Shown: positions 24,374 to 40,014 of the stretch, piece after piece
Position numbering within the stretch: position 1 is the stretch's first letter
How the letters are laid out: each line of letters begins with the position of its first letter
Source of the DNA: Amyloporia xantha
Taxonomy: Eukaryota > Basidiomycota > Agaricomycetes > Polyporales > Adustoporiaceae
Assembly (NCBI GenBank): GCA_036971615.1
Contig: JAYKKR010000046.1
Coordinates: forward strand, 1-64,000
Reading direction: 5' to 3'
DNA length: 64,000 bases
Made by a program: the position numbers and the translations under genes
The notes under the pieces: model-generated
What the model was told of the DNA's origin: nothing
Seen by the model: the letters and a program-made list of their open reading frames with translations, nothing else
Databases searched by the model: none

Positions 24374-24730
24374 TAGCTCCTTGAAAGTTTCCAGGGGTTG
24401 TCTAGGGGCTGTAGGGTGAGTCCATGTCTCACGCAATCGTTCTGGATCGCTCCGAGAACCCTTGTAACTTGAAGGAGCTTAAGATGATTGGCCCTACATA
24501 AACAACTCTCTCCCTCCCCGCACGGCATAAAGGCTGCAACTGCAAATTACCCAGGCACCGGGTTCAGATCTCATCACTGATTGTGGCATTGATTTATCAA
24601 AGTTTTGATTGACGGCGACGTTGTTTTGATGATTGCTCCACTCAATAGTCCGAGGTGATCATGTGGTAAACCCCAATACTCGGTTAGGTACTTACCCATA
24701 CTAGTAGTAAGACCTTGTCTCTCAGCAATC
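24374..24730. other. former upstream region of SDR copy 1
   Basis: Host sequence immediately left of the LINE. Because the same 15-bp target sits right of the LINE, 90 bp before an SDR gene, this stretch was the distal promoter of that gene before the insertion. No gene recognised in it. Confidence 0.5.
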
Positions 24731-24745
24731 GAGTATATAGTGTAG
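24731..24745 (+). repeat. left 15-bp target site duplication of the LINE
   Basis: GAGTATATAGTGTAG occurs here and again at 52647-52661, immediately after the LINE poly(A). The duplicated target contains a TATA-like box. Confidence 0.9.
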
Positions 24746-24747
24746 GG

Positions 24748-25198
24748 GAAGCAGAGATGCGGACCAACAACCCCAGGCTGAGCGAGATCATGCCACCTTG
24801 GGGGAACTCACCTAGGGCACGCCTAGCGTCGTCCAAGAACGGTACAGGAGTGCTGGTGTTCGCTATCGAAGACACGCGCTCTGGGCATGTGGCTCAGAAA
24901 TGGGCTGGTAAGCAAGTCTCGTTCTACGGAGTGAACAAGACGCTCGAGGTGTGGTGGGAAGCCGAGACCACACCCCAGTGTATTCGATGCTGGCGCTGGG
25001 GACATCACGTCACCATATGCCGCGTCAACAACCAGTGCTGCGTCAAGTGTGGCGAGGCTCACGAAACCGACATGCACGAGTTCTATAGCTCGTGCTGTGC
25101 TCGGGCCAGAGCGGCGCAGAAGGTCGAACAGATCTTCTGCCCGGAAGACCATTACTTCTGCCCGAACTGTGGGATCAGGGGACATGCCGCGGACGCGC
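24748..25198 (+). pseudogene. LINE ORF1 (gag-like, zinc knuckles), piece 1
   Basis: Nucleic-acid-binding protein of the LINE, truncated at its N-terminus by the 5' truncation. It shows a CCHC knuckle (CIRCWRWGHHVTIC, C-x2-C-x4-H-x4-C), a second Cys/His cluster (CCVKCGEAHETDMHEF) and the first half of a third (CPNCGIRGH). The third knuckle is split by the Ty3 insertion, with its last Cys encoded at the start of piece 2. No start codon of its own. Confidence 0.85.
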
Positions 25199-25342
25199 TG
25201 TAAGGAATGGGTATGCGCTACCCTATGAACAGACGGTAGGGCAGGACGAGACAGCGGAACGGAGGAGACGCGATCATGCGGGACAAAGGAGCTCGGCGGA
25301 AGCAAGCATGGCATTCAAACGGAACGACTACAGGACGGAACG

Positions 25343-26141
25343 CTAATCTACGGTCGACAAGTCGATGGGAGCGTCGGGCCCTTCCCCGCCGACGTCAGAG
25401 AACGAGCGGTGGCGCGGGGGACGATAAATAGTCTCCCGGTGGTAACGGAAATCCTCCTCCGCAGGGGTACGGGCCCGCGAGGAACCTCCCTCCCGACGTC
25501 CTCCCCTCCCTCCCAGAGCATGAGCGGCAACACGGATCGAGTGCTCTAGGTCTTCGAACGCCCGCGGATAGGGACGCATACGGTCCAAAGTGTCCGAGAA
25601 CTGGCGGGCGACAAGTTCGAGCCGTTCTAAAGCTTTATCGGTACGTTCCTCGGCGATGCGGGGAGGGGTCCAGAAGGCCTCTTCCGTGTACAACGGGAGG
25701 GGAGGCGGAGTACCAGCTTCGTCCCGCTGCGTATTGGAACGAACCTCGTCGGGGCTCCAGGCGATCCCAGGATAGGGGACTGCACCGCGATGGCTCAGGG
25801 AGGAGCGGAAGATCGAGTCGATGTAGTGGACGAGCTCGCGGAGGGTGACGAAGGCAGTGAGCGGAGGGAGCGTGAGGTTCCCCGCGGCTATGGCTTGGGC
25901 TCGAGCCTCATAGGCAAGGCGCTGCGGGACGGGACGTGAGGGAAGGAAAGAGAAGTAAAAGAGAAGGTGGACGAACCAGCAGCCAGCGCACTCCGTGCGC
26001 CCAGGCAAGCCAAGCAGCCGGATCGGAAGGGCGGAATGAAGGCTCAACAACGCACTCAGCGCGAAGCACGTCTACGAGGAGGAGGTAGCGGCGGACGTGG
26101 ACGGAACCGATGGGGTCGGTGGGTTCGGCGGGCTCAGACAT
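25343..26141 (-). CDS. antisense gene C, inside the Ty3 5' LTR
   Basis: Two exons, 26141-25977 (55 codons) and 25921-25343, with a GTTCGT...CCGCAG intron in phase 0; 247 aa. The first exon encodes an acidic start MSEPAEPTDPIG and a PSDPAAWLAWAHGVRWLL end. Exon 2 has ARAQAIAAGNLTLPPLTAF and a long helical segment (DKALERLELVARQFSDTLDR), then an Arg-rich tail ending PIDLSTVD. An earlier ATG at 26312 is possible. Exon 1 has the same length and phase as that of antisense gene A, suggesting common descent. No known domain. The single indel separating the two LTR copies falls in the intron. Confidence 0.65.
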
Positions 26142-26267
26142 GGCGAATGAGGCGAAGGGAGGGAAGAGCGCGCGGAAGGAGGATAAATGAGTCAGGGGAA
26201 GAGTCGGAGCGGGAGGTAGCGGGAGGAAGCGGGAGGGAGAGTGACGTGGCAGCGCACGCGGGACGAG

Positions 26268-26275
26268 GTATATAG
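26268..26275 (-). promoter_or_regulatory. possible TATA box of antisense gene C
   Basis: CTATATAC on the minus strand about 130 bp before the MSEP start codon. It is also palindromic enough to serve the plus strand. Positional inference only. Confidence 0.3.
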
Positions 26276-26664
26276 GAGGAAGGGGGACGAGGCGGGAGGG
26301 GGCATCTACCATCTGGTACGAGCTGCGACTGGGACTTTGATTTTCACGCGACCGGGTTTTCTTGCTCAGCGGAGCTACACTGCGTTTTACTTCTAGGAGA
26401 GGGCGAGCAAGCGGCTTGACCCATTTTACTGCGATTCGGGATACCTACTGCGTACTTAGGACTGCGACTGCGACTTGACTGGGATAGCGCACATAGAGCG
26501 TCCCCCATATACCTACAAGTCTCTAGCTCAATCAATTCTTTTCTCTCTTGCTCATCCTCCGTGCCAGACGCTGCGAACGTCTTCACTCCCCTTCCCCTTC
26601 GACTCATTGATCTGTTCCTTCCAGGTGTGCTTATCGCACAGCGGGAGGAGCACCAAGCCTTACA

Positions 26665-28262
26665 AGTGGAGCCCACCGCGAGGGGGAATCTTATAGTTCG
26701 AAGACTTCGTTCGCGCACCATCGCCGTGCCGGACCGTACTCTACAGCAAGAACTTCTCTTAGCCCAGAACAGTCCTATCTCCCCCCGACTAGATCTCGAC
26801 CTTCCTCACTTTCCCCTCCAACCGGCCGCGTTCGACGACTCGGACTCGGATAACCCTTTCGACGTCAGAATCCCTCCCTTCCGGTCACAAAGCAACACGC
26901 GCTCTGTATCCCTCGAACATCCTTCGCCTCCGCTCCATTCCCCAGTAAACCATGAGCCACCGGCGGAAGGAAGGAGTAACGAAGAAACATCCACAATCTC
27001 ATCAGTCACCGAATCATCCGCGACCCCGTCAACCCGCTCATCTCCCGTTCCTCCCGAACGTCCACGCCGACGAACGATTTCGGCACCACCCTCAGTATGA
27101 GTCAAACGCGAGGTCGTCGAGCCTACCATCCTGTCGACATACATAGATCCCGCGAGCATACCACTCCCTCCATCGCGAGCGAGCTCGCCCCGTCCCGCAC
27201 CTACCCAATCGACGAGTGCTACAGTACCCGCGCGTGCCATGCCTACTTCATCCATGCCCGTGCGAGGGGCGAAGACGGCGCCGACCTTCGACGGGGAACC
27301 GCGCAATCTACTGCGATATTTCGAGGATCTAGAGGACCTGTGCGCGGCAGCAGGGATTACAACGGAAGAAGAGAAGATACGGTACGCGCTGAAGTACCTG
27401 ACGGTGGAACAAGAGGAACTATGGAAGACGGCGGATGGGGCCACTGGGCGGGTGTATCTGGTGTTTAAGCGAGGGGTGAAGGCCTTGTACCCGGGGCGGA
27501 CGGAGACAAGAGGTACACCGCGGCAGACCTCGATTGCATAGCACAGTCAGCGCGAGACAAGGGGGTGCGGACGAGGGGGGAGGAGGCCGCATATTATCGA
27601 GAGTATTCCCCGGTCGCAGCCTTCCTGATATCGAAGAGCAAGATAGCGGCGCGGCACAGGGACGAAGTGTACATGCGCGGGTTTGGGGAGGAAGAACTGC
27701 GGACGATTACCCGGAGGGCGGAGATCGCAGAACCCGACCACGACCCGGACGACCCGTGGGGGATGGACGTAATGCACAAGGTGGCGCAGAAGTGCCTCCC
27801 GGGAGTAGGAGGAGGAGCCGCGGAGGGGGCGGAAGAGACACAGCAGGAACGAGTGGGACGACAGCGCCTCCAGCAGCGACCGCGGTGGTAAAGACGGAGG
27901 GCGTGGACTTGGCGCTCTTCAACCAGACGATACAGATGATGCAGGCGTTCTTGGCGGGACGCAGCGGAGGAGCGGGAGGGGCGCCGCGGACCGGGGGAGG
28001 GGTCGCGCAAGGAGCGGGAGGAGCGCCGGGCAACTTCCTGTGCAACTTCTGTGGGGACCCGGAGCACTTCATGCGGAACTGCGGGATTATTCTCCAGTAT
28101 ATCCTCGACCGGAAGATCTACCGGGACGAGACTGGGAAAGTACGGCTGCCGAACAGCATGTTCGTTCCGCGCGGCCTGCCTGGAGAGTACATGAAGGATC
28201 GAGTGGACTCGTGGCACACCCAGAACCCTGGGCAACTGGTACGAGTCGCGGGGAACGAGTGA
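26665..28262 (+). pseudogene. Ty3 gag (capsid and zinc knuckle), interrupted
   Basis: Structural protein of the particle. A proline/serine-rich leader runs in frame from the LTR to a TGA at 27098-27100 and continues in the same frame afterwards. The capsid part (KTAPTFDGEPRNLLRYFEDL, GITTEEEKIRYALKYL) shifts frame near 27490 and again near 27800-27880. The nucleocapsid knuckle CNFCGDPEHFMRNC lies at about 28040-28080. A TGA at 28260-28262 ends this part, but the frame continues into the protease region. Both TGAs would be CGA before a C-to-T change. Confidence 0.75.
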
Positions 28263-29269
28263 CAGGCCCCTCCGCACTTGGCCGCGAACCTTTTCCAGAT
28301 ATACGAGGGCGTGAACATGGTGGAGACAAGGGACAAAGGTTCGTCGGATGAGGAAGATCTGTCGGAAAGGGTCCGGGTTCTCCAAGCAGAGTTGGCGCGG
28401 GCGAAGAAGAAGGAAGTGCGGTTCGAAGAAGTGAAGAAGACAGGGGCAAGGACGGGGGCGGCGTTGCGGGGCCCGGGGGGAAAACCGCCGGGGATACCTG
28501 CGGCCAACATACCACGGACGAGCGAGGAAAAGGCTAAGGGAAGCGAAGGAAAGGGGGCGGGAGGAACCACGGGGCAATACAAGTACCAGACGGAGATCGA
28601 ACAACGGTACTCGGTGGCGGAAGCGACGAAGAAGCTCTACGGGACGAAGGTGGAGATGACGGTGGGGGAGGTCCTGGCGATCTCGGCAGGGGTGCGGAAA
28701 GAAGTGAAGGGGGACGTGACGACGTCGCGGGTAGCCACCGCCGGTCTGGTAGAAGTCGACGACGAGGACCATTGGGAGGACGCGAAGGAAACCTTCCAGG
28801 TTACGGAAGGAGGGGCGAGTATCGGGCACGACTCCCTGGCGCTGCGAGCGGTGGAACCAGTCATCGAAGGGAAGTTCACATGCGAGTGTGTGCTCGACAG
28901 CGGGGCGCAGATCGTGGCCATGCGGAAAGATATCTGGGAGAAGACAGGGATCGTCCTGAAGCCTGACGAAGCCATTACGATGGAGACGGCCAACAGCGCC
29001 CAAGTGAAAACGGTCGGGAAGGCACAGAACGTACGTTTCACGTTCGGGAGCGTTGACCTGTACCTCCAGCTGCAGGTGCTGGACGATGCGCCGTTCAAAG
29101 TTCTCCTGGGACGGCCCTTCTTTGCTCTAATCGCTTGCGAAATGCGGGACTTCCCCTCCGGCGAACAACAAATCACTCTTACGGACCTGGAGACAGGGGA
29201 ACGGGTAATGGTGGCGACGAAACCGCGGAACGGTCGACGGAAGCCATCCGCGGCGGGTTTTCAATAGTC
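28263..29269 (+). pseudogene. Ty3 protease region
   Basis: In the same frame as the end of gag, separated from it only by the TGA at 28260. A coiled-coil-like Lys/Glu stretch (RVRVLQAELARAKKKEVRF) precedes an aspartic protease with CVLDSGAQIVAMRKDIW and the distal FKVLLGRPFFALIA. Ends at TAG 29267. Cleaves the polyprotein in related elements. Probably expressed as a gag-pro fusion in intact copies. Confidence 0.7.
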
Positions 29270-29511
29270 GAGGATGCGGGCAACGCTCGCGGAGACGCAC
29301 TCGTACGTTTATACTCTCTGTATACCCCTTCCGACCCGATAGATAGAGCAGGCAAATCGGCGGAGAGGAGCACTGCGCGGGGGGAAGAAGAGAGGGGTAA
29401 TCGCACCCGGGTGTCGTCGTCTCGTCTGGACAATTCGCACATATCATGTATCGGCAAGGATATTCAGTCTCAATGCATTTCTGTTCCCTCGTATTTGCCG
29501 CGCGAACCCAA

Positions 29512-30508
29512 GATGAACGAACGACCACCGGTGGTGCGAGCAGGGAAGAAGAGGATACACTTAACGCGGGAGGGAGGACTTGTAGTGCCGGAAGGGAGCG
29601 GAAGGAGCGGGAAGGAAGGATTCTGGGTAGAAGAAGACGAGGTGGTACATGCGTACGCCTACAAGAAGGTAGCGAACAAGGTAAGGCCGGTGGCGACGAC
29701 GCTACCTGAAGAATTTCGAATCGTGCGAAGAGCGCCAGGGGACCCCTGAGGAACCTACCGGAACTGCCTCGTCGGCCGCCCGAGTTCCACCCGCAGGGGC
29801 GTTATACGGACGAGCGGAGGAAGGCGTTGGACGTAGGGGGAGGGGGATTCCTGTGGCCAGAGGAAGTGAAGTTGGTGGACTTTTTAGTGGGACAGCACGA
29901 GCGGGTGTTCGCCTGGGACGAGACGGAGAAGGGAAGGTTCTCGGACGAATACTTCGACCCGGTCATGATTCCGACGGTGGAACACGTTCCGTGGGTGCTG
30001 AAGAACATCCCTATCCCGCCGGGAATCTTTGATCAGGTCGTACAAATCATCAAGGACAAGATCGCTTCGGGGGTGTACGAGCCTTCAAACTCGTCGTACC
30101 GGTCCAGGTGGTTCTGTGTGGTAAAGAAAGACGGGAAGTCCCTCCGGTTGGTGCACGATCTACAACCCCTAAACGGCGTAGCTATCAAGGACGCGGCAGT
30201 TCCCCCACTGGTAGAGCATTTGGCGGAGTCCTTTGGGGGAAGGGGATGTTATGGGATCCTGGACCTATACGTAGCTTTCGACCAGCGGACCCTGGACGCC
30301 CGGTCTCGGGACATCACCTCGTTCCAGACGCCGCTGGGGGCATTTCGGCTGACCTCGATTCCGATGGGGTATACCAATTCTGCGCAAATTATGCATGGGG
30401 ATGTGACCTTCATCCTGCAGGACGAGATTCCGCATGTCACGGTCCCGTTCATCGACGACGTGCCAATTAAAGGGCCAAAGACCCGGTACGAGCTGGAAGG
30501 GGGGGGGG
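29512..30508 (+). pseudogene. Ty3 reverse transcriptase, N-terminal half
   Basis: A connecting segment (MNERPPVVRAGKKRIHL...) ends at TGA near 29747. The next frame carries PLRNLPELPRRPPEFHPQGR and the RT fingers/palm: WFCVVKKDGKSLRLVHDLQ, FRLTSIPMGYTNSAQIM and catalytic FIDDV at about 30450. A run of ten G at 30499-30508 breaks the frame; nine G would be in frame with the next open stretch. Confidence 0.8.
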
Positions 30509-32947
30509 TATGAGACAATCGAGGGGAACCCAGGGATAAGGCAATTCGTGTGGGAACACCTACAGAACGTAAATCGGGTGTTGCAACGGATAGGGAACGT
30601 GGGAGGGACGTTCTCGGGGAAGAAGGCGTATCTGTGCGTTCCAGAGGTGGTGGTGGTAGGGCACCGATGCACGTACGAGGGGAGGGTCCCGGAGGAGTCC
30701 CGAGTGCAGAAGATCAAGGATTGGCCGTGGTGCGAGACGGTAACAAACGTGCGAGGATTTTTGGGGACCTGCGGGCTGGTGCGGATGTTCGTAAAGGACT
30801 TCGGAAAAATGGCGCGCCCACTCAACGACCTGCTTCGGAAGGGAGCCGACTTCGTATGGGAAGAGGCGCAGGAGGATGCTATGCGGAAGCTGAAGGACGC
30901 AGTAATCAACTCGCCCGCGCTCGTCCCGATTGACTATGGGTCCGAACGGGAGGTAATTCTGGCGGTGGATTCATCGTGGATCGGGGTGGGGTTCGTGATC
31001 TTACAGAAAGGGGAGGACGGGAAGAGAAGGCCAAACCGATTCGGGTCCATAACGTGGAACGAACGCGAATCCCGATACTCGCAAGCCAAGCTGGAGCTGT
31101 TTGGGTTGTTCCGGGCACTGCGAGCGTGCCGGATCTACATTATCGGGGTGAAGAAGCTGGTCGTCGAAGTCGACGCCAAATATATTAAGGGGATGCTAAA
31201 TAACCCAGACATCCAACCAAACGCCACTATCAACAGATGGATCGCCGGGATCCTCCTATTCAACTTCAAGCTGGTACACGTGCCGGGGGAACGACATGCG
31301 GGGGCGGATGGGCTTTCGCGGCGGGGAGCAGCAGAAGAAGACCCGGAAGAGGAAGATGACTTCGAAGAGTGGATTGACGAGGCCTACGCGTTTACCATGG
31401 AGGTCTTGAATACGCCGGGAGGGAAGAGGGATGAAGAGGGACTCATGGTGTGGTCGCTGGACGCGGGAGAGGGGGTGGAGATCCCAGAAGTCAGCAACGG
31501 AGGGGCGCGGGAGGAAAGGGTGCGGAAGGTAGACGAATTTTTACGAGACCCGAGGCGGCCGGAAGGAATGGACGAAAGGCAGTTCACCTCGTTCGTCCGC
31601 TACGCCAGCAAGTTCTTTGTCAAAGGGGGGAGGCTCTGGAAGAAAGATAAAGGAGGGAAGCACAAGGTGGTGGTGGAGAAAGGGAAGCGGTACGGCCTGA
31701 TGAAAGAGGCGCACGACTCCCTTGGGCACAAAGGGATCTTCACGGTGCGCGCCCGGCTCCTCGAACGATTCTGGTGGGTTAGTCTCGATCACGACGTAAA
31801 ATGGTATGTGGGAAGCTGCCATGAGTGTCAGCTCCGCAAGGCGCACAAGTACCACATCCCACCGACGGTACCTATGCCGGGGGGGCTGTTTTCGAAGGTG
31901 CACATGGACTCGATGCACATGCCAACAGCATACGGGTACACGCATATCGTCCAAGCGCGTTGTTCCCTGTCGTCTTACCCCGAATGGCGGATGCTGCGGA
32001 AGGAGACAGGAGTGACGATTGGAAACTTCATCTACGAGGAGCTGCTGTGTCGGTGGGGAGCGGTGGAGGAGATTGTTACGGATAACGGGACACCGTTTGT
32101 CGCGGCGTTGGAACACCTGCGGGAACGGTACAAAATCAACCATATTCAAATCTCAGCGTACAACTCACAGGCGAACGGGATCGTGGAGCGGAGGCACCGG
32201 GACGTACGGGAAGCAGCGGTTAAGCTCTGTGGAGGGAACGAGAAGGGGTGGCCTAAGGTGATGCATGCCGTGTTTTGGGCGGAACGGGTGACGATTCAGA
32301 AATCGACGGGCACCTCGCCTTTCTATATCGCGCACGGGATCGAGCCAGTTTTCCCTTTCGACCTGGCGGAAGCCACTTACTTGGTGCCGCCCGACCGGAA
32401 GGAGATCAGCAATGTGGACCTGCTTGAAATCCGGGGGCGGCAGCTGCTCAAACGAGCGGAGGATTTGCGGGACGTACGGCGGAGGGTGCTGGCGGCTCGA
32501 TAGTACGCGTCGGTCAAGGATTTCGAGCGGCGGTTCGCGCGGACAATCAAGGATTTTGTGTTCACGGCGGGGGATCTGGTGCTAGTGCGGAACTCACAGA
32601 TTGAGACGGAACATAGCAGGAAATCAAAACCCCGGTATTTCGGGCCTATGGTTGTCGTACAGCGTACAAAAGGAGGAGCCTACATACTCGCGGAACTAAC
32701 GGGAGCGGTGTCGAGACTACGGTATGCAGCTTTCCGTGTGGTACCGTATAAGGCGCGAAAAGAGGTTGCACTAGACGTGCGCAAGATCGTCGAAGAAGCG
32801 GAAGAAGCGCAAAAGGGGGTATTGGACGAAATGGAAGCGGGGGAGGAAGATGTGGGTTGGGACAGTGAGCAAAAGAATTATGGGGAGGAAACGGAAGGGG
32901 GAGGATCGAGCGGGGAGGAAGGATCTGACGGTGGGGGGGAAGAGTAG
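30509..32947 (+). pseudogene. Ty3 RT thumb, RNase H and integrase
   Basis: Continues from GGYETIEGNPGIRQFVWEHL. RNase H shows ILAVDSSWIGVGFVILQ. Integrase has the HHCC zinc module (HDSLGHKGIF...CHECQLRK), catalytic-core parts MDSMHMP, VTDNGTPF and the glutamate in NGIVERRHRD. The C-terminal GPY/F-type domain (PRYFGPMVVVQRTKGGAYIL) follows. A single in-frame TAG at 32501-32503 precedes YASVKDFERRFARTIKDF; CAG would restore it. The end overlaps antisense gene B tail-to-tail by 70 bp. Confidence 0.85.
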
Positions 32948-33677
32948 GGAACGGAAGGAGGGTCGGGGGAAGGGAAGCGGGCTTCCAGGGCGAGGACGCG
33001 GCGGAGAAGGAAATGGATGACGGTGTTGTGAGTAGAGAGGGAGAAGGCGGCTCGATCGAACCCGTGGGCGACCTGGTCTTGGAGGATACGCAAGGCAGAA
33101 GAGGAGTCGCGGGCACGCGCGTGGACCTCGGCACGAAGGAGGGACATGGACGTACCCAGCGCGGAAGAAAGGGCCGTGTCTTGGAGAGACAAACGGTGAT
33201 CTACTTCTGCGAGGATCTCGAGGGCACGGGCAATGACGTCAGAGCGCAGCGGGTCCATTTGCACTTGAAGGATCTGAGTTAGGGCGGGTTCGAGTTGGTC
33301 GAGACGTGCTTGGAGTTGGGTGTTTTGGAGTTCTAAGGCGGTCAGGCGGACGGGGACCGGCGGCGGATGCGGGAGGTAGCGCAGGTGGAAGAAATCCACC
33401 ACAGCGCGACGGGCAAGGACATCGATCCCGGGGGCAGGCTCCGACGGGGACGAAGGATCATAGTCCTCTGGGAGCGTGGAATGAAGGATGGCCTAGACGG
33501 GAGTTCGGGGACAAGAAATGGTGTGGGCGAAAGGGGAGCACGTACCTCGGCGGTGTCTACGGCGTGGACCCACGCGATGCGCGCGGCTGGTTCGGAAGGG
33601 ATAGAGGTGTCGCAGAGGACCTGCAGGTACCTTTCGCGGGCCTCCTCAGGAGAAAGCACCGGGGGCGTCGTGCTCAT
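32878..33677 (-). CDS. antisense gene B of the Ty3 element
   Basis: Exons 33677-33546 (44 codons) and 33492-32878 with a GTACGT...TCTAG phase-0 intron; 248 aa. The first exon ends EPAARIAWVHAVDTAE, echoing the DPAAWLAWAHGV of gene C. Exon 2 carries a likely coiled coil (LTALELQNTQLQARLDQLEP) and a helix LLRRVLALEARFPSPD, then a Pro/Ser-rich tail. No known domain. Intact in this copy although the sense genes are broken. Confidence 0.6.
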
Positions 33678-33999
33678 GAGACTGGGCGGGAGGTCAAGGG
33701 GTGAGGTGGAGAACTCGTGGAATTTGGCGATGGGCGGCGGTAGTTATACGAGGGGGCGCAACACGCGCTTGCCGCGAGGCGGCTTCTACGCAGAACGCGC
33801 GGAGGCACGCGGCAGGGGCACACGGGACGGAAGGGGGCTGTGGAACGAGAAACTGACTTGCATTGATTTTAGCCGATCAACGGCGGGCGGCGGCGCGTAC
33901 ATACAAGGACTACGGTACAAAGGGAGACCAAACGCTACTTCAACGACAAGAATATTGGTACATTTCATACACTACGCGAATCAAGGGGGGAGTCCCGCG

Positions 34000-35769
34000 C
34001 TACGTCTCGCGGCCTTTCCCTTTGGACGCCCCAGTGAGGTCCAACATGTCCTCGTCGGTGGGCGACAGCGGCGGAAGCATTGGGGACTCGAGCTCAGCGG
34101 CAAGCAGCTCAGCGACGGCGTCGTCGCTGTCGGGAGCCGGGTTGGGAGCGGGGCCGCTGGAAGAGCCTTCGATGAAGTTGGGGGCGGGGCTGTCGGAGCG
34201 AACGGGGGCGGGCGTATGGTTGGGGTAGTCGGGAATTCCGAACTGCTCTGCGTACCCGAGGTCCCGCGCTCGATCGGCCATCTGAAAGAGGAAGTCGGTG
34301 GTCGCTGCTAATCGAGCGACGAGCCACATCTCGAGCTCGGTCTGCGGCTCGCATGGGGGATCCGCGGCGACGTCCAAGAGGTCGAGATTGCGGGGGCGAC
34401 GAATGAGGGCGGGGGGAGACTGAAGGGGAAGGGGAGAGAAGGCCGGAAGGAGGCTGGAGGGTTCCCATGGGAAGGCATCCGGGTGCTCGGGCGTCATGGG
34501 TAGGAACAGAGGTTCCTCAGCGGGCCGAGGGGGTGCGGATGGCCGGGAAGAGGGCGTAGCGGGTGCAGGGGCAGGGGACGTGATGGGTGGACGGATGGTG
34601 GTAGCGCGCGGACGGGGCGGGATGAGGACGACGGGACGGGCGCGGTTGGTGAGCGGGAATTTGGGAGGGTATGGCGGCTCGTCGTCGTCCTCGTCAGATT
34701 GCGGGCCGACGAACTCGATGTGCTCTGGGGAAGTGGAATGAAACGTACCTGTGGGAGGAAGAGCGGGGGAAGGACTTACGATTGGCGGGGGGATCGTCGC
34801 GGATGGTGCACTTCGCCCGCGCGATCATGCACGACTCGCAGACATGGCGGCGAGTGCCGTCTCCCGCGCAGCGATACCCCTTCTTGGTGCAGTATGCGCA
34901 TGGGGGGTGGTTGAGGTACACAATGGGACCCCGCCGATCGCGGTTCGGGCGATCAGCGAGGTTTCTCTTGGTGGCGGTGGCGGGACGAGGCGGAACCTTG
35001 ATAGAAAGGCGGGGGGCTTTGGGAGGTTTCGGGGCGGCCGTTCTACCTTTCGTCTGCCGCTTCTTCCCACCCACGGTGTGCGGGGGCGGCGGGGACGGCG
35101 GGAAAAGGTCGGACGAGGGTTCTACTTCATCTTCACCCTCGTCATCGTCCAACTCCACGGTCGACGGCGTTAGCGGCACGCTTCCGCCTGAAGAGGCGTT
35201 GCGACTTACTTCATCCGTTTCTGACGGGGAGGTGTAGCGGGACCCCGAGGCGGACGTATCGGCGTCGGTGGGAGGGAATGGGGCTGGGGGCCATAGGTTA
35301 TGGAGGGTGCGCGAGTGGCGATTCCAGGTGAAGTTTTGAGTGCCGGCGAGGAAGGTGGCGCTGTGGGCGGGAGAGAGGCGCTGCAGGAGGGAGTCGTAGT
35401 ACTGATCCGCGACGGGGAATTCGTCGCGGTAGGCCATGAGTCGGCCGCGCGTGGCTGCGAGCCAGGTTTGCAGCTCCAGGGCCGGGGCACTGCGCGGCGT
35501 GGTTTCGTGGCTGGCCACTGCATGGGCCGCCGCCAGCGCCACCTAGCAGGAACGTCAAGGTTAGGGAGCGGCGGCGCAATGGGAATCGCGAACGAGCCAC
35601 TTACCCAGGCCTGGCCCAAGGAGTTCACCCACCGTAGCCACTCCTGTAGGTCCCGCGGCGAGGGGTCGTCGCCGAGCTCTGGTTCCGCGCCGCGTAGCGT
35701 GTCGAGGCGCTGTTCGATGATAGGGAGGGAGCGGCGAGCAGCGGCGGGGTTGGTGAGGTCGACGGACAT
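34000..35769 (-). CDS. antisense gene A of the Ty3 element, Cys-cluster protein
   Basis: Three exons, 35769-35605 (55 codons), 35542-34780 and 34724-34000, totalling 1653 nt, 550 aa, with GTAAGT donors and all phases consistent. The first exon ends DLQEWLRWVNSLGQAW. The middle has an acidic region and a Lys/Arg/Pro-rich stretch, then a Cys cluster CAYCTKKGYRCAGDGTRRHV followed by CESCMIARAKC. This six-Cys spacing recalls fungal Zn2Cys6 or knuckle modules, so nucleic-acid binding is plausible. The C-terminus is Pro-rich and ends in TGASKGKGRET. Related antisense genes are known to me only generally from basidiomycete Ty3 elements; function unknown. Confidence 0.65.
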
Positions 35770-36082
35770 GGTTGTGGAGGGAGCGGGTCGAGGTCGGGAA
35801 GGGAGAGTGGGGGGTAAAGGGCGAGGTCGGAGGGGAAGAGAGGACGTTAGGGATGAAGAAGCGGGTGCCGTTCCCCTCGTTTGGCAGCCTCTGTGGGAGC
35901 AGCGGGATGCGCAGCAGGAGTGCCTCGAGGTGGGCGCGTGCCCCGGCGCTATCGATCTTAACGCGATCGCGGCCCGATCGCGTGTATCTGCGATGATCGG
36001 ACGACCTGAAGGCCCGGGGATTTGCTCGGGGATTAGGACGGCAGACCGACCGAGGACGGTCGGAATTTAAGTGGGTAGGGGG

Positions 36083-37549
36083 TGTAAGGAATGGGTATGC
36101 GCTACCCTATGAACGGACGGTAGGGCAGGACGAGACAGCGGAACGGAGGAGACGCGATCATGCGGGACAAAGGAGCTCGGCGGAAGCAAGCATGGCATTC
36201 AAACGGAACGACTACAGGACGGAACGCTAATCTACGGTCGACAAGTCGATGGGAGCGTCGGGCCCTTCCCCGCCGACGTCAGAGAACGAGCGGTGGCGCG
36301 GGGGACGATAAATAGTCTCCCGGTGGTAACGGAAATCCTCCTCCGCAGGGGTACGGGCCCGCGAGGAACCTCCCTCCCGACGTCCTCCCCTCCCTCCCAG
36401 AGCATGAGCGGCAACACGGATCGAGTGCTCTAGGTCTTCGAACGCCCGCGGATAGGGACGCATACGGTCCAAAGTGTCCGAGAACTGGCGGGCGACAAGT
36501 TCGAGCCGTTCTAAAGCTTTATCGGTACGTTCCTCGGCGATGCGGGGAGGGGTCCAGAAGGCCTCTTCCGTGTACAACGGGAGGGGAGGCGGAGTACCAG
36601 CTTCGTCCCGCTGCGTATTGGAACGAACCTCGTCGGGGCTCCAGGCGATCCCAGGATAGGGGACTGCACCGCGATGGCTCAGGGAGGAGCGGAAGATCGA
36701 GTCGATGTAGTGGACGAGCTCGCGGAGGGTGACGAAGGCAGTGAGCGGAGGGAGCGTGAGGTTCCCCGCGGCTATGGCTTGGGCTCGAGCCTCATAGGCA
36801 AGGCGCTGCGGGACGGGACGTGAGGGGAAGGAAAGAGAAGTAAAAGAGAAGGTGGACGAACCAGCAGCCAGCGCACTCCGTGCGCCCAGGCAAGCCAAGC
36901 AGCCGGATCGGAAGGGCGGAATGAAGGCTCAACAACGCACTCAGCGCGAAGCACGTCTACGAGGAGGAGGTAGCGGCGGACGTGGAGGGAACCGATGGGG
37001 TCGGTGGGTTCGGCGGGCTCAGACATGGCGAATGAGGCGAAGGGAGGGAAGAGCGCGCGGAAGGAGGATAAATGAGTCAGGGGAAGAGTCGGAGCGGGAG
37101 GTAGCGGGAGGAAGCGGGAGGGAGAGTGACGTGGCAGCGCACGCGGGACGAGGTATATAGGAGGAAGGGGGACGAGGCGGGAGGGGGCATCTACCATCTG
37201 GTACGAGCTGCGACTGGGACTTTGATTTTCACGCGACCGGGTTTTCTTGCTCAGCGGAGCTACACTGCGTTTTACTTCTAGGAGAGGGCGAGCAAGCGGC
37301 TTGACCCATTTTACTGCGATTCGGGATACCTACTGCGTACTTAGGACTGCGACTGCGACTTGACTGGGATAGCGCACATAGAGCGTCCCCCATATACCTA
37401 CAAGTCTCTAGCTCAATCAATTCTTTTCTCTCTTGCTCATCCTCCGTGCCAGACGCTGCGAACGTCTTCACTCCCCTTCCCCTTCGACTCATTGATCTGT
37501 TCCTTCCAGGTGTGCTTATCGCACAGCGGGAGGAGCACCAAGCCTTACA
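36083..37549 (+). repeat. Ty3 3' LTR
   Basis: 1467 bp, preceded by a purine-rich tract (AAGTGGGTAGGGGG). Differences from the 5' LTR that I can see: A/G near 25234 versus 36118, one extra G near 36827 (inside the antisense intron), and C/G near 26103 versus 36987. Confidence 0.92.
36227..37026 (-). CDS. antisense gene C, second copy in the Ty3 3' LTR
   Basis: Same two-exon structure as the copy at 25343-26141, with the extra base in the intron and one amino-acid change (IGSLHV instead of IGSVHV). Open throughout. Being in the LTR, the gene is duplicated with every insertion and would survive as a solo-LTR gene after recombination. Confidence 0.65.
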
Positions 37550-37855
37550 GCGCCCAAGTGCCCGTTCGTCCGGAACAAGAAGAAGTCCGCGTGGCACAAG
37601 GCACATCCACCGAAGGTGCCGGCCATCGCAGGCATCCAACGGGCGGAAAAGACCGCAGACAATGAGCGCCGCCGAGGTATATCCAAGAGGAAGCGCGCAG
37701 AGAAGGCCGCTACAGCCACCGCTGAAAACAGTGCGCGCGAGCTGGGCGAGTTCGTTACGGACGAGTCCGAGAGGGAGCAGATGCCCCGCCCCGGACCGGA
37801 ACAGGCAGAGTCTTCGGGCGCCCGCGAAAGTAGTATCACCGAATATTCTGCATGA
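37550..37855 (+). pseudogene. LINE ORF1, piece 2 (C-terminal part)
   Basis: Continues piece 1 after the GCGC duplication with PKCPFVRNKKKSAWHKAH, including the last Cys of the third knuckle. A basic Lys/Arg/Ala-rich segment (ERRRGISKRKRAEKAATATA) and an acidic tail end at TGA 37853-37855. The stop overlaps the ORF2 start as ATGA. Confidence 0.8.
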
Positions 37856-39710
37856 GTAGTCGTGACGAGGGAAACAACGGCGACATAGTCGCACCGTATG
37901 TACCGGCCGCTTCCACGCCACCCGGTTCGCATGTACGGGCTCCAGGTTCAACACCTGTCCCAAATGTATCTACTGTATCCGAGCAATCTGATGAGTTCCT
38001 ATCCTTACGTTGTGTGAGCGCAAATGTCCAAAAGTCGGCGGACAATTTGGGCATGCTCTTAGAACGTAACCAAAATGCGGACATCATTTGTGTCCAAGAA
38101 ATATATTGGGGGAAGGTCAAACAGATCGCCTCCAGCAAGTCGAAAGACGGCGAAGCGTACGAGAACACGATTGGCCATCGATCATTCAAGTGCCTGGGCG
38201 CCTCGAAAGAGTCGCGCGTAGCAGTTTATGTAAACAAGCGTTGGTCCAAAGCCAGTCCGCAAATACTAGCCAGTCACGTCACACACAGGGATTGTCTGTT
38301 GGTGACGCTTCGATTACCCACAGGAGAGTTTAATATACTCAATGTGTATAATGATAGTGACCGCCATGAGGCGATCCAGTATCTCGGGAGCCGTATTCAT
38401 CAGCTCCCACCAATTGCGTTCATGGCAGGGGACTTTAATCTCCGCCATTCCCTATGGGACAAGCGCACAGCGAATTCAGCGATAAGACCTCCACATGTTG
38501 CTGACTCAAATAGGCTTCTCGAGTTGGCACAAACCGACTTGGAGCTCACCCTCCTAAACGAGACAGATGGACCCCCTACATGGAGATCCAATAATCAGGA
38601 ACTCGCTCTGCGAGTTCTAGACTTAGTATGGATAGACCCCATGTATTTGGGCGACAACTATCTAAGAATAGGAATGGCAGACCGCCACAAGAGTGACCAT
38701 GCGGTCATTCGGTGGGAAATGCCGATTGAAGTTCGGCCACCCCCCACGCAGGGTATCCCGCGCGTGAGCGAGGAGGCGAACGGATTTGTAGCGGAAGTTA
38801 CGACGCTAATGTCGGAACTTCCCCAAGAATACTCGACATCCGAGGAAGTCGAACGCACGGGGGAGCTGTTTGAGCGCTCCCTACAGGAACTGTGGACCAA
38901 GAATGCCAAGGTCAGCAGGCCAACCAAGCGCTCTAAATCGTGGTGGAATGCCGCGTGTGCCGAAGAAGCTGCGAAGCTTCGTTCGGCAAAGAGCGAATTA
39001 GATGCCGCCGGAGCAGCAATGCGGGCAGCAAGATACGAGATGGGCGATCTATTCACTCACGACGAATTTAGAAGAGTACAGGGCTGCAAGGCCACAGTAC
39101 GCTTCTACCACGGCACCTTGAGGGCAGCTTGCCGCAAGGCAAAGAGGGAACATTTTGAGAAATTCATGAATGAATCCCACCCCCAGTTAATCTCGGACTT
39201 TGTTGCCTGGACGAAGCCGAGGAAAACAGATGTAGCCATCCAACTCAAACGGCTGGACGGCACAGCTGTAGAGACGCCCGCGGATCTCCGTGATGCGTTC
39301 CAAGAACAGTTCACACCGGCCAATCCCCGGCCGGTGGACATGCAATTTGTGCATGACCTGCCTCAACGAGAGATCAGGTCGTACGCGCCTATCAGTGAAG
39401 CAGAAATCCTGGAGAATCTCCGGGACACAAGCAACACATCAGCGCCAGGCCCAGACCACGTCAATTGGCTGTGGCTAAAATGGATAGTGGGCGTCTCTAT
39501 GCGCCCAGATCGCGAGGACAATACTATCCGGGTAGTGCCGCAAGTGAGGAAATTCCTCGTTGCATACTATAATGCATGCATGAACCATGGGATATTTCCC
39601 AGTGTGTTCAAGCGATCCATAACGGTCGTGTTGGCAAAGCCCAACAAGCCGGATTACTCCAAAGCTAAGGCCTACCGGCCGATATGCTTGCTTAATTGTC
39701 TGGGAAAACT
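37852..39710 (+). pseudogene. LINE ORF2, piece 1 (AP endonuclease and RT start)
   Basis: Starts at ATG 37852. The endonuclease shows RCVSANVQKS, CVQEIYWG, AGDFNLRHSLWDKR and the catalytic SDHAVIRW. A linker leads to RT motifs APGPDHVNWLWLKW and KAYRPICLLNCLGKL. The copia element interrupts the frame two bases into the codon after LGK. Across its three pieces ORF2 totals 1517 codons including stop, with no internal stop. Confidence 0.9.
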
Positions 39711-40014
39711 TGTTGAACGATCAGTTTCCAACTATAGTAGTCGCACTTCCATACTTGGTAGTCAGTACTTACTCATTTCTATGATGTTCTATGACGTTCC
39801 ATAGTATGCTCTTGTCTTACTTCATAGGCTCCACTTTCTTACTAAGAAATCTCCACTATGATTTCATTATGACTTCATATCTTACTCAGATATTCTATAG
39901 GTTTCTGGATACGATTACTAAGGAGCCTTTCATGCATGTATATAAGCAGGGCCTTACAGCCCACTAGAATACAAGACGGATTAGCCTCCTCTCCTCTATA
40001 GTCTGCGCTCAACA
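39711..40014 (+). repeat. copia 5' LTR
   Basis: 304 bp, identical on inspection to 47894-48197. Contains a TATA box (TATATAAG, 39939-39946) about 70 bp before its end. Confidence 0.95.
39939..39946 (+). promoter_or_regulatory. TATA box in the copia LTR
   Basis: TATATAAG in GCATGTATATAAGCAGGGCC. The same box is present in the 3' LTR near 48122-48129. Confidence 0.6.

Follow-up and report, generated by a model that had tools for sequence, protein, structure and literature searches.

The closest described counterparts of the genes reported here are the antisense open reading frames (ORFs) of plant long terminal repeat (LTR) retrotransposons termed aORF-3R, which lie between pol and the 3' LTR and include gene23 of maize Grande as well as ORFs of rice RIRE2 and Silene Retand (PMC7264820, PMC11963269). 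Their origin and role are described as unknown, and a nuclear or DNA-binding role has been proposed (PMC7264820). In fungi, brtn of the Boty-like element (BcGypsy1) of Botrytis cinerea is likewise an extra antisense gene in an LTR element (PMC8365987). Among retroviruses, an antisense gene has been reported in the LTR DNA of human immunodeficiency virus type 1 (HIV-1) (PMC1654176), and HBZ of human T-cell leukemia virus type 1 (HTLV-1) has spliced antisense messages driven from the 3' LTR; its product is nuclear, carries a transcription-factor-type domain and lowers sense expression (PMC10186651). Here we analyze a Ty3 element of 12.35 kb at positions 25199-37549 of a 64-kb window (the whole stretch of DNA under study) of Amyloporia xantha contig JAYKKR010000046.1, in which three predicted genes, A, B and C, run antisense to gag-pol. 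The best reading is that they represent a variant of the antisense genes known from plant Ty3 elements and Botrytis Boty, and the comparison of many copies demonstrates that selection has retained their proteins.

Based on models rebuilt and compared across copies, gene A has three exons on the minus strand (35769-35605, 35542-34780 and 34724-34000; 550 amino acids) and gene B has two (33677-33546 and 33492-32878, minus strand; 248 amino acids). Gene C, also on the minus strand, has two exons encoding 247 amino acids and is contained entirely within each LTR, at 37026-36862 and 36805-36227 in the 3' LTR and at 26141-25977 and 25921-25343 in the 5' LTR, where it reads outward from the element. 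The order in which the minus strand is read is thus C, A, B. All these exon coordinates and protein lengths reproduce exactly those proposed in a first-pass annotation of the window, and its description of short first exons (55, 44 and 55 codons in A, B and C) joined in phase 0 holds for all three genes. The four introns of the set measure 62, 55, 53 and 56 bp. The 3' end of B extends into the end of the sense frame; otherwise A and B are situated between pol and the 3' LTR.

A and B thus fall under the aORF-3R definition, whereas C, being inside the LTR, falls outside it. In contrast to the plant ORFs, there are three genes per element here, all of them bear introns, they share a first-exon module, and one lies wholly in the LTR. 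The word ‘intron’ occurs 0 times in the texts of the two plant papers (PMC7264820, PMC11963269). The TRP28 domain (PF04195) of Retand had no match in the exon pieces of A, B and C, in A exon 2 with its relatives, or in spliced B and C. Zhao et al. 2011 reportedly described, to judge by the title, one antisense gene in Boty-like elements. HBZ differs from the present genes in being of the bZIP type and in having a TATA-less promoter (PMC10186651). The bZIP family was not found among the Pfam matches of A, B and C. To our knowledge, HBZ is not a complete gene inside an LTR and has no sequence relation to A, B or C. Word searches of the open-licence literature, which leaves most subscription papers outside, retrieved no report of spliced antisense genes in basidiomycete Ty3 elements, nor of a retrotransposon LTR containing a spliced antisense gene in full.

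In the 46.8-Mb assembly, 40 matches to the B region were listed including the window (40 of 43 candidates were scored), and the 20 of the other 39 that are closest to the window copy were taken as stretches of approximately 10 kb for comparison. More than 90% of the exons are present for A in 19, for B in 21 and for C in 18 of the resulting 21 copies, a set chosen via the B region, so that copies lacking B could not show. L022 and L026, in which the match ends within A, were left out of the A and C counts, and L013 was left out of the C count. In two of the copies (L018 and L027), A is 80-81% identical to the window copy and B 93-94%, as if A alleles might have been swapped between subfamilies.

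The first-pass annotation had proposed comparing nonsynonymous (N) and synonymous (S) changes between copies, and this comparison supports selection at the protein level. The ratio of nonsynonymous to synonymous polymorphism (pN/pS), calculated on window coordinates, is 0.15-0.20 (0.197 for A in 19 copies, 0.190 for B in 21 and 0.151 for C in 18). The other frames of the same stretches have values of 0.98-4.4, save for one opposite-strand frame with 0.19-0.27, which is the mirror of the gene frame and contains 144-151 stops. Across the copies, the frames of A, B and C contain 0, 1 and 0 in-frame stops, respectively, compared to 44-292 for every one of the five remaining frames. The observed N/S ratios of 0.68 (A), 0.55 (B) and 0.66 (C) are far below those obtained by random placement of the changes (2.54, 2.05 and 2.06, respectively), and for each gene none of 500 placements was as low. 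Stops created by single changes on window codons number 1, 1 and 0 in A, B and C versus 10.4, 2.2 and 2.2 expected; as few stops were seen in 0, 171 and 49 of 500 placements, respectively, a result that is clear for A only, and stop counts alone are weaker evidence than N/S.

The splice sites point in the same direction. The canonical sites claimed in the first-pass annotation are invariant across the copies at all 16 GT/AG bases of the four introns, while 99 of the 210 intron core sites vary; under equal variation at all sites the chance of such invariance is about 4e-5. Intron length varies by one to four bases among copies, differences that would shift the frame unless the introns are spliced out. 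These observations bear on the simplest alternative, namely that A, B and C are chance long frames in GC-rich DNA. The GC content of 0.50-0.76 over all codon positions and the long open frames found on both strands are what such a view would predict; the selection seen in the frames, the fixed splice bases and the relatives outside the assembly speak against it. Altogether the N/S ratios, the per-frame pN/pS and stop counts and the splice bases refute the chance origin, to which we assign a negligible probability.

Frame-breaking indels were scored at each site against the commoner frame class. Introns (5.46 per kb) and spacers (4.71) have the highest densities, followed by A (2.28), the sense genes (1.53), B (1.47) and C (1.04). 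The antisense exons are therefore hit 2-5 times less often than introns and spacers, which is difficult to reconcile with a second alternative, in which the antisense unit works as RNA that pairs with the genomic RNA and either controls copy number or feeds silencing, the frames being incidental. A, B and C are indeed complementary to the 3' portion of the genomic RNA and to LTR sequence, and control by antisense RNA has been discussed for plant elements (PMC7264820). An RNA acting alone would leave the codon-level selection (N/S of 0.55-0.68 versus 2.1-2.5 expected) and the combination of diverging introns with fixed splice bases without explanation. We thus reject an RNA role as the sole explanation because of the N/S and splice-base patterns, and consider the alternative improbable as stated; an additional role for the RNA is possible.

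The sense genes of the same copies are also under purifying selection, with pN/pS of 0.070 for protease (PR), 0.075 for reverse transcriptase (RT) and 0.067 for the RNase H-integrase region (RH-INT), 0.156 for the integrase tail and 0.323 for a gag piece in which frames are mixed in the window copy. PR, RT and RH-INT are more constrained than the antisense genes, the integrase tail is about equally constrained, and the gag piece is more weakly constrained.

The similarity of the first-exon ends, which had been noticed in the window copy, is real. When the 20 residues that end each first exon are anchored at the junction, the combined score of A, B and C is reached in none of 5000 shuffles, and it also exceeds all 400 shuffles that allow slides of 0-2 residues; the 20-residue anchor was picked after the likeness had been noticed. 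Among the anchored pairs, A-C and B-C were each beaten in 0 of 5000 shuffles, and A-B gave p 0.002. A Trp nine codons before the phase-0 junction is present in every copy (19/19 for A, 21/21 for B and 18/18 for C). The protein comparison covered the first 80 residues, over which local alignment supported B-C (p 0.003) and A-C (p 0.012) but not A-B (p 0.23). The proposal that the three genes form one paralogous family is supported for the first exons, which are related, and common descent of the whole genes is a possibility. A first-exon module common to A, B and C is likely.

The first-pass annotation had further proposed that the antisense genes stay open while the sense genes of the element decay, and here the other copies lead to a different picture. 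The sense damage described for the window copy is confirmed in part. Two of the sense stops, at 28260 in gag/PR and at 32501, occur in no other covering copy: the former is a sense codon in all 12 covering copies (8 copies are without coverage), and the latter is gapped in all 20 other copies. The stop at 29265, which ends the protease frame, is found in all 13 covering copies and is therefore part of the usual layout; it seems that gag-PR and RT-INT form two frames or are linked by a frame change or an intron. Of six frame-class deviations in the sense genes of the window copy, one is private and five are common to other copies. The absence of damage in the antisense genes is correct for the window copy, which is among the few with A, B and C all open. 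In the family as a whole, only 4 of 19 copies of A, 9 of 21 of B and 9 of 18 of C are unbroken by indels, compared to 0 of 13 full copies of the sense genes (window included), and one of the nine such B copies (L018) has a substitution stop. The proposal also does not survive comparison of the break densities given above, in which A exceeds the sense genes, B is close to them and C is lower.

One might still suppose that the window copy has lost its sense genes and that selection now keeps only the antisense ones, as its broken sense and open antisense frames suggest. The codon changes private to the window copy point the opposite way (N10/S18 in sense and N9/S4 in antisense genes, both small numbers), sense and antisense break counts are uncorrelated (rho 0.10, p 0.76 in 12 copies, L026 being excluded), PR, RT and RH-INT are the more constrained genes family-wide, and the LTRs of this copy are only 2 substitutions apart, so that almost no time has elapsed. 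Private changes, indel rates and the lack of correlation in damage lead us to reject this explanation, which is very improbable. Special selection on the antisense genes cannot be read from the contrast within the window copy; it is the codon pattern across the family that provides the evidence.

Sites of frame breaks shared by more than one copy are frequent (26 in the sense genes, 13 in A, 4 in B and 5 in C). This recurrence suggests that broken copies relied on proteins from other copies for their amplification; it could alternatively result from repeated slippage or from errors of assembly in base runs. Most single-base deletions, scored relative to the window copy, fall in runs of at least four equal bases (84 of 99 in the sense genes and 34 of 61 in A), and nine rows of A exon 1 from other copies end at residue 37-40, where a frame break recurs beside a run of the base C. 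Some of the deletions in base runs may be assembly errors, and for this reason we relied on substitutions.

Against this background we think it fairly likely that A, B and C are protein-coding, trans-acting accessory genes of this Ty3 family, and probably nuclear regulators. Gene A contains the six-Cys cluster of the first-pass annotation, with the pattern C-x2-C-x6-C-x9-C-x2-C-x6-C at residues 270-300; its six Cys are retained in 19 copies except for one single-base gap, and 6 of 8 positions of a basic stretch at residues 215-222 are invariant across copies. The spacing fits the consensus of the Zn(II)2Cys6 (Gal4-type) domain. A shares this six-Cys spacing with the fungal Zn(II)2Cys6 proteins and differs from them in its Pfam score. 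We infer that A most likely binds nucleic acid in the nucleus and regulates the expression, chromatin state or integration of its own element, and that B and C, sharing the first-exon module of A, would be its probable partners.

Several observations weigh against this assignment. A, B and C are predicted genes, known from DNA sequence alone. The Pfam Zn_clus model (PF00172) gives A only 12.6-12.7 bits, under the cut-off of 21, and A exon 2 has no match in the PDB by sequence, so that nucleic-acid binding by A is suggested by the Cys spacing and the basic residues. For spliced B and C, Pfam searches at an E-value of 0.1 gave no match. Over the 20 other copies, private changes are N58/S108 in the sense and N93/S104 in the antisense genes, the latter being less constrained. 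Moreover, A is frame-broken in 15 of 19 copies; an element therefore does not require its own A in cis, and the gene may be dispensable. C exon 2 retrieved three PDB rows by sequence, all at chance level.

The same data could be explained by proteins that act directly in replication, in the particle, the pre-integration complex or nuclear import, similarly to env-like and retroviral accessory proteins. Purifying selection and action in trans fit such a role equally well, and RNA or cDNA could be bound by A through its basic stretch and Cys cluster. The family and PDB searches gave nothing that points to a protein of the particle or of integration, and expression antisense from an integrated copy would suit regulation better. 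We consider a direct role in replication possible but rather unlikely.

The following scheme can be proposed. Minus-strand transcription would yield C, A and B, all of them with introns of their own. Transcription of C probably begins at a TATATA palindrome detected by a pattern scan of the 5' LTR (26269-26274, with its 3' LTR copy at 37154-37159; readable on both strands), some 130 bp ahead of the start codon of C. The palindrome also faces the sense side and is a possible two-way promoter; by its position relative to this TATA-like site, gene C would be placed in U3. A and B probably use promoters in the spacers ahead of each. Upstream of A, two blocks on the minus strand (35922-35944 and 35954-35975) are invariant among the aligned copies in an otherwise variable spacer, and represent a possible signal. 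In the genomic RNA, the template of reverse transcription, antisense introns do not act as splice signals, and they are carried along in each round; for this reason the antisense orientation would let the introns persist through retrotransposition. Action of the proteins in trans is probable, given that many alleles are broken and that frame-break sites recur across copies.

In the assembly, we typed at least 101 C loci (rows of at least 147 amino acids; shorter and exon-1-only rows were excluded), and among the matches listed 94 of the 101 have no stop within the match. The listed loci include 26 pairs spaced 9.8-12.4 kb apart, like LTR pairs, and 49 unpaired loci, which may be solo LTRs or pieces of truncated elements. 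A search with LTR DNA (at least 40 matches listed) and another C search added nothing further. In a protein collection queried with A, C and A exon 2, relatives from outside the assembly were found for C (two, at 96% and 62% identity) and for A exon 2 (one, at 81%); the 96% relative of C may come from the same species, and whole A had no relative there.

A survey of pol sequences (66 of 353 candidates scored) revealed another Ty3 family, represented among the matches listed by 10 pol rows at 47-48% identity. All 10 are accompanied on the opposite strand, 0.79-0.97 kb past pol, by matches to a further gene, D. The D model, made by eye from one copy (L045), has a 51-codon first exon, a phase-0 junction and a Trp at position -9, followed by a long E/R/K-rich stretch resembling a coiled coil and the pattern CxxC-x9-C-x8-CxxC-x6-C. 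Its last exon has 22 matching rows with 46-100% identity, of which 20 are free of stops. Near the 10 pol rows at 44-46% identity among the matches listed there was no D match, and in one 1.4-kb stretch beyond pol of a copy with 45% pol identity (L046), read by eye, there was no antisense gene. D thus resembles A, B and C in position, orientation, introns, CxxC pairs and the Trp at -9 of the phase-0 junction. Local alignment of D with the N-termini of A, B and C, and of the A and D Cys regions, was not significant, and junction-anchored comparison gave p 0.04 for A-D, 0.40 for B-D and 0.13 for C-D.

A broader and more tentative reading would place an old, widespread antisense Cys-rich gene in the Ty3 elements of this host group. 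A single ancestral antisense gene may have been duplicated within a Ty3 element to give the C-A-B set of trans-acting regulators, and solo LTRs would then be free-standing regulatory genes that spread independently of gag-pol. Each solo LTR would be a copy of a regulatory gene because C is complete in the LTR, probably together with its promoter.

The element itself is delimited by a 5' LTR at 25199-26664 (1466 bp, plus strand, TGTAAGG...CCTTACA) and a 3' LTR at 36083-37549 (1467 bp, plus strand), both defined by LTR-LTR alignment, with a purine-rich tract at 36071-36082 just before the latter. The two LTRs differ by 2 substitutions and 1 gap over 1467 aligned columns, and inspection of the flanks identified a 4-bp target duplication, GCGC, at 25195-25198 and 37550-37553. 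The element is young and its family recently active. The gag-PR-RT-RH-INT region extends over 27101-32945 on the plus strand (gag start approximate), with its frame broken in the window copy, and was recognized by Pfam on separate pieces and by pN/pS. The pieces above the Pfam cut-offs are gag-asp_proteas (1.5e-08), RT_RNaseH_2 (3.5e-18) and Integrase_H2C2 (1.1e-16), and those under the cut-offs are SH3_Tf2-1 (4.7e-04), RVT_1 (0.003) and rve (0.0036). Near-identical LTRs with a short duplication and the order PR, RT, RNase H, integrase (RVT_1 and rve being sub-threshold) identify a Ty3/gypsy element. It is adjoined from 37834 by a frame for an endonuclease of long interspersed nuclear element (LINE) type (Exo_endo_phos_2, 2.3e-11 in Pfam). 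With a Cys-rich frame without a Pfam match on the 24688-25198 side and the endonuclease frame at 37834-39804, the Ty3 element seems to have been inserted within a LINE.

Plant LTR retrotransposons are a long-established source of antisense genes to which no function has been assigned (PMC7264820). The family described here offers three spliced genes with clear protein-level selection, present in multiple copies, and one of the three is located within the LTR. Provided that the host proves amenable to culture and transformation, the function of such genes can be tested. Such genes may be missed by annotation procedures that mask LTRs or that call such frames hypothetical host proteins.

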